From assembly GCA_040183005.1 (NCBI GenBank), contig JAMPIW010000002.1, forward strand, positions 62,001-126,000: a DNA stretch of 64,000 nt, written 5' to 3'. Each line of letters starts with the position of its first letter. Position 1 is the stretch's first letter. Positions 25,160-32,497 of the stretch are shown in pieces. The DNA is from Gammaproteobacteria bacterium (GTDB lineage Bacteria > Pseudomonadota > Gammaproteobacteria > Ga0077554 > Ga007554). The notes beneath the pieces are model-generated. The model was not told where the DNA came from. It saw only the letters and a program-made list of their open reading frames with translations, and made no database searches. The position numbers were made by a program, and so were the translations under genes.

Positions 25160-25390
25160 TTACTTCTTCTCTTCTTTCTTCTCTTCAGCCTTGGTTTCTT
25201 TCTTCTCTTCGGCCTTTGTTTCTGCCTTATGATGCTTCTTCATTTCCGTGTGCTTCTTCATTTCCTTGTGCTCAGCGGCCGGTGCCGGTGCCGCTGCCCC
25301 AGCTGCCTTCTCATCGGCGTTAGCCACGGTCGAGAAACCGAACAAGGTGGTAATAGCAATCGCAGCAGCACCAATTAAAGCTTTATTCAT
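25160..25390 (-). CDS. Small exported Lys/Glu-rich protein
   Basis: The 76-aa protein begins MNKALIGAAAIAI, has a signal peptide cleaved near ANA-DEKA and a mature part made of alanine, lysine, glutamate and histidine with repeated units (KAEEKKETKAEEKKEEKK, preceded by HKEMKKHTEMKKHH). A GAGG site lies 8 nt before the ATG. No catalytic motif is present. It is a paralogue of the next minus-strand gene (25602-25844), with closely matching signal peptides. The charge pattern would suit metal or polyanion binding in the periplasm, but that is only a guess. Confidence 0.7.
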   Translation of the reverse strand: MNKALIGAAAIAITTLFGFSTVANADEKAAGAAAPAPAAEHKEMKKHTEMKKHHKAETKAEEKKETKAEEKKEEKK

Positions 25391-25601
25391 TTCGCAATCC
25401 TCGCTAGATAATGACGTACCTGACATCTGGTGGCTTAGGCAATAAACATCCTGTTCACCATCGGTTTTGATGATACCACAAATAATTATAGGGTTTAGCA
25501 ATGCGCTGTTATTGATATCTGACCGCGAGCCACGACAAAAAACTGACACACTGACTCATTACCCCCCATAAGCAGCACTTCAACAAACTCGCTCGCCCTG
25601 G

Positions 25602-25844
25602 TTATTTAGGAATATTTCTGTCGTCCTCTTTTTTCCGTTCTTTATTGCCTTCTGCTTTGGCGGCATGTTTATCCATTTTGCTCATGTCCGCATGTTTATT
25701 GTGACCTTTGGTGTCGTGTCCGTCGCGCTCAACGGCCACTATTCCTGCCGCTTCAGCCTCCTTATCGCCGGCATTCGCCACGGCGAAAACACCAAACGAA
25801 GCAACCATCGCCATCGCGGCAGCGCCAATCAGAATCTTATTCAT
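25602..25844 (-). CDS. Small exported His/Lys/Asp-rich protein, paralogue of 25160-25390
   Basis: The 80-aa protein starts MNKILIGAAAMAM with a signal peptide cleaved near ANA-GDKE. The mature part is rich in H, K, D and E (DGHDTKGHNKHADMSKMDKH). AGGAGA precedes the ATG, and the preceding in-frame TTG is unlikely. No known domain is recognised. The pair differs in charge order: this member has more histidine and aspartate, the other more glutamate and lysine. Confidence 0.7.
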   Translation of the reverse strand: MNKILIGAAAMAMVASFGVFAVANAGDKEAEAAGIVAVERDGHDTKGHNKHADMSKMDKHAAKAEGNKERKKEDDRNIPK

Positions 25845-25892
25845 CAAGCAGATCTCCTTAAAAAGTTGAATTTGACAACGAACCAGATCTTT

Positions 25893-26586: not shown

Positions 26587-27288
26587 TTAGATCAAATGCT
26601 TCAACATTAGTTTCTTGATTTTCCCGATTGCCTTGGTGGGATTCAATCCCTTGGGGCAGACATCGACACAGTTCATGACGGTGTGGCAACGGAACAGCCG
26701 GTACGGACCTTCCAGCGCTTCCAGACGCTCTGCCGTAGCCTGGTCGCGGCTATCGGCGAGAAAGCGATAGGCTTGCAATAGCGCTGCCGGACCACGGAAT
26801 TTGTCAGGGTTCCACCAGAACGAGGGGCAGGCGGTGGAGCAGCAGCCACACAGGATACATTCATACAAACCGTCGAGTTCGTCGCGCTGTTCGGGCGTCT
26901 GAAGATACTCAACTTCAGGCTCGGGATCATGAACGATGAGATAGGGCTGGATGGCACGGTACTGGTGGTAAAACTGGCTCATATCAACCACCAGATCGCG
27001 GATCACCGGCATGCCGGGCACGGGTCTAATCTCGATCGGTTGTTTGAGGTTGGCAAGCGGTGTGATGCAAGCCAGCCCGTTGCGTCCATTGATGTTCATG
27101 GCATCCGAACCGCACACGCCTTCGCCGCAGGAGTGGCGGAAGGACAGGCTTTCGTCGTTGGCTTTGATCAGGCGCAGCGCGTCGAGCAGCATCATGCCAG
27201 GGGCGACATCCGCGTCCGGCAGATCAATGTCCTGCATGCGGGGCGCGGCATCCGTTTCAGGGTTGTAGCGGTAAATGGAGAAGCGCAT
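26587..27288 (-). CDS. sdhB: Succinate dehydrogenase iron-sulfur subunit SdhB
   Basis: The 233-aa protein has the [2Fe-2S] segment (CGEGVCGSDAMNINGRNGLAC) split over residues 55-75, and the later CILCGCCSTACPSFWW and CHTVMNCVDVCPKGLNP motifs for the [4Fe-4S] and [3Fe-4S] clusters. It transfers electrons from the SdhA flavin to ubiquinone at the membrane. Upstream, 146 bp of repeat element separate it from sdhA; its ribosome-binding site (AGGGG) lies inside that element's inverted repeat. Confidence 0.96.
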   Translation of the reverse strand: MRFSIYRYNPETDAAPRMQDIDLPDADVAPGMMLLDALRLIKANDESLSFRHSCGEGVCGSDAMNINGRNGLACITPLANLKQPIEIRPVPGMPVIRDLVVDMSQFYHQYRAIQPYLIVHDPEPEVEYLQTPEQRDELDGLYECILCGCCSTACPSFWWNPDKFRGPAALLQAYRFLADSRDQATAERLEALEGPYRLFRCHTVMNCVDVCPKGLNPTKAIGKIKKLMLKHLI

Positions 27289-27434
27289 ATGGGTACCCCT
27301 AAAAATTCACTGAAGGCGCGCTGGCGGCGTTGCAAAGCCGCTCAAAATGCTCATGTACTATGTGTACACTGCGCTTTTTCGCGTCTTTGCGCCTTGCCAT
27401 CATCGCCTTGATTGCATTTTTAGAGGTACCCATA
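27289..27434. mobile_element. Inverted-repeat element between sdhA and sdhB
   Basis: The gap between sdhA and sdhB is bounded by inverted repeats: ATATGGGTACCCCTAAAAAT at the sdhB side and ATTTTTAGAGGTACCCATAT at the sdhA side. They share a KpnI-like GGTACC core and differ at one base. Inside is a GC-rich stretch (GCGCGCTGGCGGCGTTGC) and no coding frame. sdh genes are normally adjacent, so this looks like a MITE-type insertion that conserved operon function. Confidence 0.65.
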
Positions 27435-29213
27435 TCAATACACCCTCGGCTTGGGCGGGAAACTCTCCACGGTCAGTGGTTTCATCCGCACCGGCTTGTA
27501 ATCAATCTGACGGTTCTGTTTGGAGTACAGACTGTGCTTCAGCCATTTAACATCGTCACGCTCGGGATAGTCGATGCGGGAGTGGGCGCCGCGACTCTCC
27601 TGGCGCGCCAGGGCGCAGCTCACCGTGGCGAGCGCGATGTCGACCAGATTCTCCAGCTCCAAGGCCTCGATGCGTGCAGTATTGAAAACCTTGCTGTGAT
27701 CCTTGAGATAGACATTCTGCAGGCGCGCCTCGATCTCCCGCACCTTCTCCAGCCCCTCACGCAACACATCCTCGGTGCGGAACACGCCGCAGTAATGCTC
27801 CATGGCGCGCTTGAGATCATTGCGCAGCGCATCCACCGTTTCGCCATCGCCGCGCCGATCCCAGCGCGCGAGACGCTCAAGCGCCTGATCCACGCTGTTC
27901 GCTGCCGGGGGGCGGCTGTAGCGGTTTTCGCGCAGATATTCACTGATGTGATTGCCCGCCGCACGACCAAACACGACGATATCCAGCAGCGAATTGCCAC
28001 CCAGGCGGTTGGCGCCATGCACCGAAACACAGGCACATTCGCCGACGGCATAGAGTCCGGGCACCGGCTCTTCCGCGCCCTGTTGTTGCGGTGCAACTAC
28101 TTGTCCAAAGCGGTTGGTAGGAATGCCGCCCATGGTATAGTGCGCCGTGGGAAATACGGGTATGGCGGTGTTAATTGGGTCGATATGCAAAAAGGTCTGC
28201 ACCATGTCGCGTATCCCTGGCAGGCGTTTGCGTATCACCTCCTCGCCGAGATGATCGACCTTCAGCAGTATAAAATCCTTGCTGGGTCCGCAGCCCCGGC
28301 CTTCGCGCACCTCGGTGGCGATGGCGCGACTCACGACATCGCGGCTCGCCAGGTCTTTGGCGTGGGGGGCGTAGCGCTCCATAAAGCGTTCGCCTTCGCC
28401 ATTCACAAGGTAACCACCCTCACCACGCGCGGCTTCCGTAATCAACATACCCTTACCGGCAATGCCGGTGGGATGAAACTGGAAGAACTCCATGTCTTGC
28501 AGCGGAACACCGGCGCGCAGCGCCATCGCCATGCCGTCGCCGGTGTTGATTCGGGCATTGGTGTTGGTGCGGAATAGCTGCCCTGCCCCACCAGTCGCAA
28601 GCAGCGTGGTCTTGGCCTGGATCACCAGCGGCTCGCCAGTCTCGATTTCCAGCACCAGCGCGCCAAGAATATAACCCTCGTCATCCTTGAGCAGATCAAT
28701 GGCGAAATATTCGTCGAAAAAATGGGTCTTGGCGCGGATGTTTTGCTGATACAACGCGTGCAGAATGGCGTGCCCGGTGCGATCCGCCGCAGCGCAGGTG
28801 CGCGCCGCCTGGTCGCCGCCGAAATTCTGGCTCTGGCCGCCGAATGCGCGCTGATAGATCTTGCCATTATCCAGCCTCGAAAACGGTACGCCGATATGCT
28901 CAAGCTCGATCACCAAGCGCGGCGCGGCGCGGCACATGTATTCGATGGCGTCTTGATCGCCGAGGAAGTCGCCACCTTTGACGGTATCGTACATATGCCA
29001 GTGCCAGTTGTCCGGCGACACATTGGCCAGTGCGGCGTTCATCCCGCCCTGCGCGGCGACGGTGTGCGAGCGCGTCGGAAACACCTTGGACACCACCGCC
29101 ACGTTGGCCTCGTCCTGCGCTAGCTGCAAGGCCGCGCGCAGCCCGCCACCGCCCGCGCCGATCACCAGTACATCAAACTTGCGGCTTGGTATATTGGCCT
29201 TGATCTGGCTCAT
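27435..29213 (-). CDS. sdhA: Succinate dehydrogenase flavoprotein subunit SdhA
   Basis: The 592-aa protein starts MSQIKANIPSRKFDV with the FAD fold VLVIGAGGGGLRAAL. SHTVAAQGGMNAAL carries the histidine for covalent FAD. Other conserved parts are FQFHPTGI, the HYTMGGIPTN active-site region, and GANRLGGNSLLDIVVFGRAAG. It oxidises succinate to fumarate in the citric acid cycle and complex II. The ATG at 29213 overlaps the sdhD stop (ATGA); the open frame extends 12 codons upstream but that part is sdhD. Confidence 0.97.
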   Translation of the reverse strand: MSQIKANIPSRKFDVLVIGAGGGGLRAALQLAQDEANVAVVSKVFPTRSHTVAAQGGMNAALANVSPDNWHWHMYDTVKGGDFLGDQDAIEYMCRAAPRLVIELEHIGVPFSRLDNGKIYQRAFGGQSQNFGGDQAARTCAAADRTGHAILHALYQQNIRAKTHFFDEYFAIDLLKDDEGYILGALVLEIETGEPLVIQAKTTLLATGGAGQLFRTNTNARINTGDGMAMALRAGVPLQDMEFFQFHPTGIAGKGMLITEAARGEGGYLVNGEGERFMERYAPHAKDLASRDVVSRAIATEVREGRGCGPSKDFILLKVDHLGEEVIRKRLPGIRDMVQTFLHIDPINTAIPVFPTAHYTMGGIPTNRFGQVVAPQQQGAEEPVPGLYAVGECACVSVHGANRLGGNSLLDIVVFGRAAGNHISEYLRENRYSRPPAANSVDQALERLARWDRRGDGETVDALRNDLKRAMEHYCGVFRTEDVLREGLEKVREIEARLQNVYLKDHSKVFNTARIEALELENLVDIALATVSCALARQESRGAHSRIDYPERDDVKWLKHSLYSKQNRQIDYKPVRMKPLTVESFPPKPRVY

Positions 29214-29557
29214 GCCGCCCCCCCCATCATCAGAATACGCAGCACCCACAACCCCATTGCCAACAGACCTGCCGCCACCAATGCCAACAACACAAAACGC
29301 ACCCCCAGTGGATGCACATAATCCATAATCACGTCACGCAGACCCACCCAGGCGTGGATCAACAGCGCGGCAAAAAATATACTGGCTGTCACAGCGATAA
29401 AAGGGAGCGTCATCCAGGTTCGCCACTCCTGATAGGAGTTTGGCGCATCCAACACCAGATGCAATACAAACATGCCGATGAAGAGCGCCATATAAACCGC
29501 GCTCAAACGCTGCAACAGCCAGGCGCGAAAACCGGAGGCGCGCCAGATCATAGCCAT
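29210..29557 (-). CDS. sdhD: Succinate dehydrogenase membrane anchor SdhD
   Basis: The 115-aa protein has three hydrophobic helices and the segment HAWVGLRDVIMDYV, which holds the heme/quinone-side histidine and aspartate-tyrosine pair of SdhD. It overlaps sdhC by 10 nt and sdhA by 4 nt. Confidence 0.93.
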   Translation of the reverse strand: MAMIWRASGFRAWLLQRLSAVYMALFIGMFVLHLVLDAPNSYQEWRTWMTLPFIAVTASIFFAALLIHAWVGLRDVIMDYVHPLGVRFVLLALVAAGLLAMGLWVLRILMMGGAA

Positions 29558-31222: not shown

Positions 31223-32101
31223 ATGACAGCCACCCAGCACGCTAAAAAAGACGCCACAGCAGATCTCGAAGACAGGTTCATCTCCAGGCTGCTCGATGAC
31301 ATCCGGCACAAGCGAATAGGATTACCCACCCTCCCGGAAGTCGCCATCAGGGTGCGCAAAGCAGCCTCTGCACCGAATGTCACAGCCGCACAGCTTGCGC
31401 AGCTTGTCGGCACTGACCCTGTTTTGTCGGCACGCCTGTTACAGGTGGCAAACAGCCCGCTCTATCGCGGCAACAAATCAATCCTTAACATACAAACCGC
31501 CATCGCCCGGCTCGGAAACACACTGGTACGCAACCTGATCACCAGCGTCGTCGTCAGCCAGCTATTTCAGGCCCAGGTGCCCTCCGCCATCAAACACCGC
31601 TTAAAAACGACGTGGGCACATACTATTCAAGTGGCGGCCATCAGCCACGTGCTGGCCCATAAATTCACCCGGCTCATGCCGGAGCAGGCCATGCTGGCCG
31701 GACTGATACATGACATCGGAAAGTTACCGATTCTGATGCAACTGGAGATGTTCCCCGGCCTGCTTGAGAATGAACAAACCGTTGACCGTCTGGTTACCCT
31801 TCTGCACCCCCAGATCGGCAAAGTCATACTCGAAGCCTGGAACTTCCCCCCGGAAATGGTTGCGGTGGCCGCCGAGCACGAAAATCTGGCGCGCAATCCC
31901 GGACCGCAAGCCGATTATGTCGATGTCGTCCTCATGGCAAATCTATACAGCCACATCGGCACCAGCCACCATTTTGGCATAGCCGAATGGCCCTCGATTC
32001 CAGCCTGCGGCAAATTGGGCCTCACGGCTGAACAATGTCTTATTACCCTCAATGACGCGCAGGCGGAAGTAATGGAAATACAGAAACTGCTGACTGCCTA
32101 A
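31223..32101 (+). CDS. HDOD domain signalling protein
   Basis: The 292-aa protein begins MTATQHAKKDA and is made mainly of an HDOD domain: LPTLPEVAIRVRKA, DPVLSARLLQVANSPLY, IQTAIARLGN, then GLIHDIGKLP and a helix with EHE. HDOD proteins lack full HD phosphodiesterase activity and work as regulators, often in stress or motility control. No partner domain is attached. The open frame extends upstream to 30899 but overlaps ygfZ; the ATG at 31223 fits the family. Confidence 0.85.
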   Translation: MTATQHAKKDATADLEDRFISRLLDDIRHKRIGLPTLPEVAIRVRKAASAPNVTAAQLAQLVGTDPVLSARLLQVANSPLYRGNKSILNIQTAIARLGNTLVRNLITSVVVSQLFQAQVPSAIKHRLKTTWAHTIQVAAISHVLAHKFTRLMPEQAMLAGLIHDIGKLPILMQLEMFPGLLENEQTVDRLVTLLHPQIGKVILEAWNFPPEMVAVAAEHENLARNPGPQADYVDVVLMANLYSHIGTSHHFGIAEWPSIPACGKLGLTAEQCLITLNDAQAEVMEIQKLLTA

Positions 32102-32141
32102 CTTCAATTCCATTTCAATGGGAAAATCAACGCATCCCCTC

Positions 32142-32176
32142 ATCCCCTCTCTCCCGCCCTGCGGGAGAGAGGGGAT
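32142..32176. repeat. Perfect 16-bp-arm hairpin after HDOD gene
   Basis: ATCCCCTCTCTCCCGC, a CCT loop, and GCGGGAGAGAGGGGAT form a perfect hairpin. It lies 40 bp beyond the HDOD stop. It resembles the hairpins embedded in hsdM, so it is likely a dispersed repeat that also serves as a transcript-end structure. Confidence 0.7.
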
Positions 32177-32276
32177 TTCTATATCAGAGGCTTGAGCCAA
32201 CGGGACAAGGACGGGTGCTGTGTCTTCGAAGGTGGTGCGGCTCACCACGAAATGTAGCCATTCATTCAACCCTGAG

Positions 32277-32497
32277 TAGTTCGCATCCCCCGAAGGCAGG
32301 CGCCAAATGCAATGCAAATGATCCGGTAAAAGCACAAAGGCTTCAATATCGAAAGGGTGCGACTCCTTGACTCGCCAGATCGCCGTTTTGAGCGCGGTGT
32401 ATATTCGTGGCTCGGTCAAAATGGGTTGGCGGCGGTATGCGTTGACCGTGAAGAAATATGTGCCACCCGGCGTCAAGGCTCTACGAAATGTAGCCAT
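32277..32497 (-). pseudogene. RAYT (REP-associated tyrosine transposase) N-terminal remnant
   Basis: The frame begins MATFRRALTPGGTYFFTVNAYRR and keeps about 74 residues including HLHCIWRLPSGDANYS, which contains the Y1_Tnp metal motif (HLHCIW). At 32276 similarity to the second copy (35563 downward) stops. Beyond this the frame continues in unrelated sequence; there a second copy of its own start region (tacgaaatgtagccattcat) occurs at 32246-32270. The catalytic tyrosine part is absent. Confidence 0.8.

Follow-up and report, generated by a model that had tools for sequence, protein, structure and literature searches.

A family of MITEs is usually pictured as being defined by its terminal repeats, its inside being free to drift. 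Several described systems resemble the insert between sdhA and sdhB presented here, and they are compared below as far as excerpts of the cited papers describe them. MITEPsy1 of Pseudomonas syringae is a 100-nt element with 18-nt terminal repeats and a 4-nt target duplication that moves in vivo, and its relatives were suggested to be widespread (PMC3189936). The terminal repeats differ (GGAAGGTCTGAAAAAGCC), the likeness was judged by length, ends, duplication and mobility, and the excerpts of PMC3189936 describe no Shine-Dalgarno (SD) role. The Correia/NEMIS elements are, like the sdhA-sdhB insert, MITEs of similar size with a long hairpin, which is co-transcribed and acts on neighbouring messages; however, their effects go through promoters, an IHF site and RNase III, and they have TA at their termini and are not described in these excerpts as carrying an outward SD sequence (PMC10969869, PMC2229807). 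ERIC is also a co-transcribed MITE hairpin that affects the message, but it acts through an RNase E site at the 3' ends of genes (PMC10969869). Chunjie-1 of Geobacter uraniireducens is a MITE in an operon, the structure of which is undisturbed according to a title cited in PMC10969869, but it measures 235 bp and the excerpt states no ribosome-binding role for it. CGTC-tagged REPs are small palindromic repeats, and two elements of the genome studied here carry a CGTC-like REP inside ends of the same type as those of the insert; REPs differ from the insert in their size of 20-40 bp and are apparently without a dedicated transposase (PMC3733652). The known contributions of MITEs comprise promoters, IHF sites, RNase sites and insertional inactivation, and an outward ribosome-binding site in a transposon end is absent from the effects reviewed in the excerpts of PMC10969869, as it is from the literature matches listed. 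Two properties of the elements described below look new: their ends contain a probable outward ribosome-binding site, and a core that is conserved across the class is combined with interchangeable ends.

The sdh operon is needed for respiration. In the DNA stretch analysed (64,000 nucleotides, referred to as the window), sdhC, sdhD, sdhA, sdhB and sdhE all lie on the minus strand, sdhA and sdhB being supported by Pfam. The features of the sdhA-sdhB junction are as follows.

26587-27288, minus strand: sdhB, the downstream gene, its ATG 2 nt past the element (Pfam)
27287-27290: target-site duplication ATAT, sdhB-side copy, overlapping the first two bases of the sdhB ATG
27291-27431: MITE GGGTACC...GGTACCC, 141 bp, recognised from its sequence and from the empty site in 7/7 relatives
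27291-27306, plus strand: terminal inverted repeat, sdhB side, 16 nt
27296-27300, minus strand: Shine-Dalgarno-like AGGGG for sdhB, part of the terminal repeat and 7 nt from the ATG
27323-27400, plus strand: conserved core hairpin, matching covariance model R1 with 98.7 bits, this copy being among the 32 used to build R1
27416-27431, minus strand: terminal inverted repeat, sdhA side, 16 nt
27432-27435: target-site duplication ATAT, sdhA-side copy, its last base being the A of the sdhA TGA
27435-29249, minus strand: sdhA, the upstream gene, its TGA (27437-27435) ending 3 nt before the element (Pfam)

The sdhA TGA and the sdhB ATG (27288-27286) are separated by 146 bp, and the net insertion amounts to 145 bp, i.e. 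the 141-bp element and one extra copy of ATAT. The initial annotation had placed a MITE-like insert at 27289-27434; the element does lie inside this span, which however takes in part of both ATAT copies. The inverted-repeat ends described there are real: the one inverted repeat in the 146 bp has 32-nt arms (27287-27318 and 27404-27435) that are 88% complementary, and the predicted RNA fold of the insert reaches -72 kcal/mol, compared to -38.7 +/- 3.6 for shuffled sequences (z -9.3; 0/200 as low). Compared both with the opposite end and with the form most frequent among other copies, the sdhB-side terminal repeat shows a single T-to-C difference. The MITE-like character was also borne out by the 4-bp duplication, by the empty site in relatives and by the presence of multiple copies in the same genome. 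The element is short and has no transposase gene, and it is unlike the 20-40 bp palindromes with a GTAG or CGTC tag of the REP/RAYT type in its length and its 4-bp duplication. Judged by its sequence, the sdhA-sdhB insert is a MITE.

The sdhA-sdhB site is empty in all seven other genomes of the family, where only 1-2 nt separate the sdhA stop from the sdhB start (five have TGA-T-ATG, one TGA-AT-ATG and one TAA-T-ATG). These relatives bear on whether the insert could be a regulated intergenic element, which the initial annotation had envisaged in case relatives shared the same 146 bp, for instance a riboswitch or a conserved leader of the sdh operon. The core is indeed conserved and covarying, but the relatives lack it at this junction, the same ends occur beside unrelated genes elsewhere and no covariance model of Rfam 15 matched up to E 1 in 27000-27700. 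The empty sites refute such an element for this locus, and we regard it as extremely improbable. The internal promoter for which a search had been proposed was not encountered either, as no promoter-like or terminator-like site (intrinsic terminators) was found in 27100-27600.

The view that sdhA and sdhB are usually contiguous holds for the near relatives and only partly further out. Among 80 SdhB-related loci fetched, 70 had a usable sdhA-sdhB gap, and 19 of these gaps were of at least 60 nt, compared to 0/62 for sdhC-sdhD, 1/62 for sdhD-sdhA and 14/74 for sdhB-sdhE. Strong hairpins (z below -4) numbered 7, 0, 1 and 3 at these four junctions, respectively, and stretches with inverted repeats were found in the sdhA-sdhB gap of several other relatives. 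An insertion hotspot at sdhA-sdhB was considered and rejected: sdhC-sdhD and sdhD-sdhA usually overlap (medians -7 and -1), so the contrast between gaps shows tolerance and not targeting. One distant gammaproteobacterium (L119, JAADJE010000012.1; 68% SdhB identity) carries a separate GGGCACC...GGTGCCC element in its sdhA-sdhB junction, an independent occupant of the same operon junction that was recognised by its ends.

The genome-wide repeat search suggested in the initial annotation yielded 21 matches in the genome itself, this copy included. Three of them have GGGYRCC-type ends over most of their length and one is an end fragment, while most of the others have the inner part in common and different ends. 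Matches were found in 8/8 genomes of the family, this one included. Phage records gave none and plasmid records a single weak one, both at E up to 1e-5. Fetched copies are typically 140 bp long. They were collected by similarity from a few genomes, some are orthologous, and they are defined by their ends, so that a few are without the standard core. A perfect 4-bp duplication flanks 49 of the 96 elements with GGGYRCC-type ends, compared to about one expected by chance, a figure that is a rough and not a computed estimate. Away from start codons, 44 perfect duplications have T at position 1 in 35 cases and A at position 4 in 37 cases; the preferred duplication is TNNA. Among the 184 flanks there are 17 cases in which the stop codon of a long ORF ends 0 or 1 nt short of the element, probably because a TNNA target often contains TAA or TGA.

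Some elements combine the same ends with other insides. L041 (G000 C7:1413139) and L042 (G000 C2:138000) have the same end type around a different inside, GTCATTCCCGCG, a CGTC-like, REP-like palindrome, and the L041 copy has the duplication GTCA. Four G332 loci (L339, L346, L348 and L363) have the same ends around elements of 45 to 245 bp, one consisting of nearly the ends only and others containing extra GTCGCTCCTGCGC-type blocks.

Read outward, an element end gives TTTTTAGAGGTRCCC and resembles a Shine-Dalgarno sequence (TAGAGGTRCCC). The statement in the initial annotation that the AGGGG of sdhB comes from the element's own repeat was correct as to position, and the same arrangement, as far as sequence can tell, recurs in the family. 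For each element end, the distance to the closest ATG beyond it that opens an ORF of 100 codons or more was determined. The first 74 elements, with 144 flanks, gave 10 such ATGs at a distance of exactly 2 nt. A further 22 elements (40 flanks), taken from 18 of 20 stretches fetched after the peak had been seen (the loci L367 and L385 had no intact end pair), added three starts at 2 nt, with every other distance below 30 nt empty; two of the 22 are without a core-like block, and leaving them out gives 3/38 flanks at 2 nt. In the pooled set of 96 elements and 184 flanks, 13 starts lie at 2 nt, one at 1 nt, one at 5 nt, none at 6-17 nt and 25 at 18-33 nt. The peak of 13 compares to a background of 1.04 per position (18-63 nt; Poisson 1e-10) and the single start at 3-17 nt to 15.7 expected (Poisson 2.7e-6), these P values being approximate and only guides, as the elements are not fully independent. 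With the ATG 2 nt past the element, the spacing from AGAGG to ATG is 7 nt. Pfam families were assigned to 11 of the 13 genes downstream, including pantoate ligase, MoeA, a BamB-like protein, Methyltransf_4 and an ABC permease, and the domains of the pantoate ligase and of the ABC permease start within the first two residues; the downstream genes at L043 and L374 had no Pfam family. These data suggest that the element end may be a ready-made ribosome-binding site, which would let the MITE enter operons without silencing the next gene, and we infer that the terminal repeat probably works as such a site. Throughout the family, insertions up to about 17 nt upstream of starts occur only where AGAGG falls 6-10 nt from the ATG.

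The peak at 2 nt could also be attributed to the transposase, if it favoured NNAT^G and the peak thus reflected targeting and not the survival of working sites. The duplications are indeed non-random, as described above, and six ATGs without a long ORF were found at 2 nt, compared to about two per position; they apparently stem from TTAT or ATAT duplications followed by G, and they indicate that a small chance background exists. However, an insertion that ends 2 nt before an ATG requires NNAT as its target, and only 4 of the 44 perfect duplications elsewhere end in T. As 37 of them end in A, the preferred target being TNNA, start-adjacent sites are not preferred. Moreover, a long ORF follows 13 of the 19 ATGs at 2 nt, compared to 4 of the 35 ATGs found elsewhere within 0-17 nt, and even with targeting, selection would be required to account for the empty zone at 6-17 nt. 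We consider targeting very unlikely and infer that the peak reflects selection in favour of insertions by which a ribosome-binding site is restored. An empty zone at 6-17 nt would be expected if insertions there cost genes their native SD sequences. Elements with other ends have no 2-nt peak (0/119 flanks with approximate ends), but they have no empty zone either: with exact ends, 1/65 flanks have a start at 0-5 nt and 7/65 at 6-17 nt, and by eye several starts at 12-17 nt have an SD-like sequence between the element and the ATG.

Many of the start-adjacent copies lie at operon junctions, as 8 of the 13 have a same-strand stop (ORF of at least 80 codons) within 8 nt before the element. At L368 and L376 the sequence implies an original junction TGATG, in which a duplicated TGAT keeps both the stop and the start. 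The corresponding junctions of moeA and bamB are without such an insert in relatives, since the upstream stop lies 5-52 nt before the expected start in seven relatives for moeA and in the 4/7 resolved by script for bamB, the bamB relatives without a row being L396 and L397 (full-length match) and the split L402/L403.

The best explanation of the sdhA-sdhB junction, which we consider probable, is a MITE mobilised in trans, with ATAT keeping the stop and the start and the terminal repeat replacing the SD sequence, as a property of the whole family. A transposase that makes 4-bp duplications would have moved the element into TGA-T-ATG, where the duplicated ATAT left the stop of sdhA and the start of sdhB intact. 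In its outward reading (TAGRGGTACCC-NN-ATG), the terminal repeat would have replaced the SD sequence that sdhB formerly had inside the end of sdhA; there, in the empty site, an SD-like GAGGG begins 14 nt upstream of the ATG. The sequence is AGAGG in most listed copies and AGGGG in the sdhA-sdhB copy, and this single change replaces an A-U pair in the base of the hairpin by a G-U pair. The predicted duplex with the anti-SD sequence is worth -6.5 kcal/mol for the copy's own AGGGG, -7.1 for the family's AGAGG and -6.4 for the old site in sdhA. If true, this explains how a hairpin enters a core operon without loss of the next gene. The family would also offer natural, base-resolution insertion data on the closeness to a start codon at which inserted DNA is tolerated.

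The 18-bp base of the hairpin would close the SD sequence until a ribosome ending at the sdhA stop, which adjoins the first arm, opens the hairpin, and sdhB would thereby stay coupled to sdhA. In the folded mRNA, the SD sequence is predicted to be fully paired (unpaired 0.0), compared to 0.13 for the unmasked SD of the empty site. When the nucleotides behind the sdhA stop are masked, it becomes unpaired to about 0.2 (0.21 at most) at 15-18 nt and to 0.03-0.06 at 9-12 nt. Excerpts of PMC12548453 give two models of translational coupling, in one of which a ribosome translating the preceding gene melts the structure around the next start codon; they also report, however, that coupling tends to be weaker where structure directly follows a stop codon. 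Coupling of sdhB through the opening of the hairpin, as modelled here, is thus put forward tentatively and with some doubt.

In an alternative reading the MITE is passive: RNase III or another nuclease would cut the transcribed hairpin and sdhB would be translated from the processed message, the SD likeness of the repeat being accidental. The hairpin is long and strong enough to fit such processing, and excerpts of a review report RNase III cutting at Correia terminal repeats (PMC10969869), but both the 2-nt peak and the empty 6-17 nt zone would be left unexplained; we judge this reading, the accidental likeness included, to be unlikely.

The inside of the element is shared more widely than its ends. 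With the element as query, 62/369 genomes of the class matched (E up to 1e-6), four of them from the same family, often only over positions near 36-110. From 97 matches, removal of the chance matches L084, L085 and L129 and of sequences more than 88% identical left a core set of 39, and the A1/A2 alignments omit seven more with long insertions or shifted frames (L036, L040, L137, L193, L205, L206 and L288). In the resulting 32 diverse cores, 14 of 21 base pairs show changes on both sides. Core cells are paired in 95.1%, compared to 81.6% after shuffling (0/500 as high) and to far less when the partners are slid, and internal-loop blocks such as CTCAAAATGCTCA are nearly fixed. In L036, L040, L137, L206 and L288 an extra block of about 12-22 nt adjoins GCGTT or GCCTTG in the core, and in some of these cores the opposite arm holds a corresponding block, which gives the impression of a stem extended simultaneously on its two sides. 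Selection at the RNA level for one functional strand of the core was hinted at by 7 G-U, 39 A-C and 745 standard pairs (helix-1, plus strand), but was dropped, since the counts were 4 vs 7 after thinning to below 80% identity and the orientation was 13 vs 10 in 23 tandem gene pairs (by hand).

The covariance model R1 (core of about 78 nt) detected 98/274 genomes of the class at E up to 1e-5, three of them from the same family. In a sample of the phylum it matched 83/299 genomes, 63 of them outside the class, where the matches are clear in four (G380, G401, G430 and G442, below 1e-12) and weaker in the rest; the E-values are rough and the weaker out-of-class matches are without a control. The core was found within at least six clearly different types of ends (GGGYRCCTCTAWAAA, AGAACCTGTTCAYGATCTC, TCCTACTGTGTCACAAAG, AGCAGGCTGTTGAAAAA, GAGCGCTTTGCACGAA and TAGGACTTACGCAAAACG), to one or other of which the further types AGCAGGCTGTGGATTTTC, TAGGAGGCTGTCCGAAAA and AGGGAGCCTCTGATTAATTA may be related. 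Several of the ends that enclose the core are, as we take them, similar to IS ends. At 71 of the 86 R1 matches in fetched loci an inverted repeat around the core is recognisable, and in 49 of the 71 both of its arms start 30-36 nt from the core. Core and end sequences sought in paper texts matched 7 and 1 papers, none of which, going by titles, concerns such an element, and a Xanthomonas PCR primer contains one of the end sequences. The usual view of MITE families is inverted by a core that outlasts its ends. We propose an old mobile-hairpin lineage of Gammaproteobacteria that is defined by its core and would have switched transposases repeatedly, one of its ends being a portable outward ribosome-binding site that makes coupled junctions survivable, a proposal for and against which we see the case as evenly balanced. 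The range of such a lineage would probably extend to other Pseudomonadota.

A partner transposase was sought through DDE_Tnp_1 matches in four genomes, and no matching end pair was found at the 30 of 48 that came with loci. No partner IS was found at 15 loci around ends without an exact mate (in G001, G004, G006 and G000); several of these were short elements with an imperfect mate, and the rest were lone ends or chance matches. Five further genomes gave no exact end pair at an IS-like distance, only two of them having any match. The GGGTAACTATAAAAA repeats of the genome itself were rejected as candidate ends, as they differ from the MITE repeat and flank a separate multi-copy element, which we take to be IS66-like.

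In the window, an ORF at 31943-32497 (minus strand), 4.5 kb from the insert, shows a weak Y1_Tnp (IS200-like) match (20 bits vs a Pfam cut-off of 23 bits) and is possibly a decayed REP-type transposase. Two adjoining small ORFs at 25160-25847 (minus strand) have signal-like starts and Lys/Glu/Ala-rich tails and, judged by eye, appear to be paralogous.
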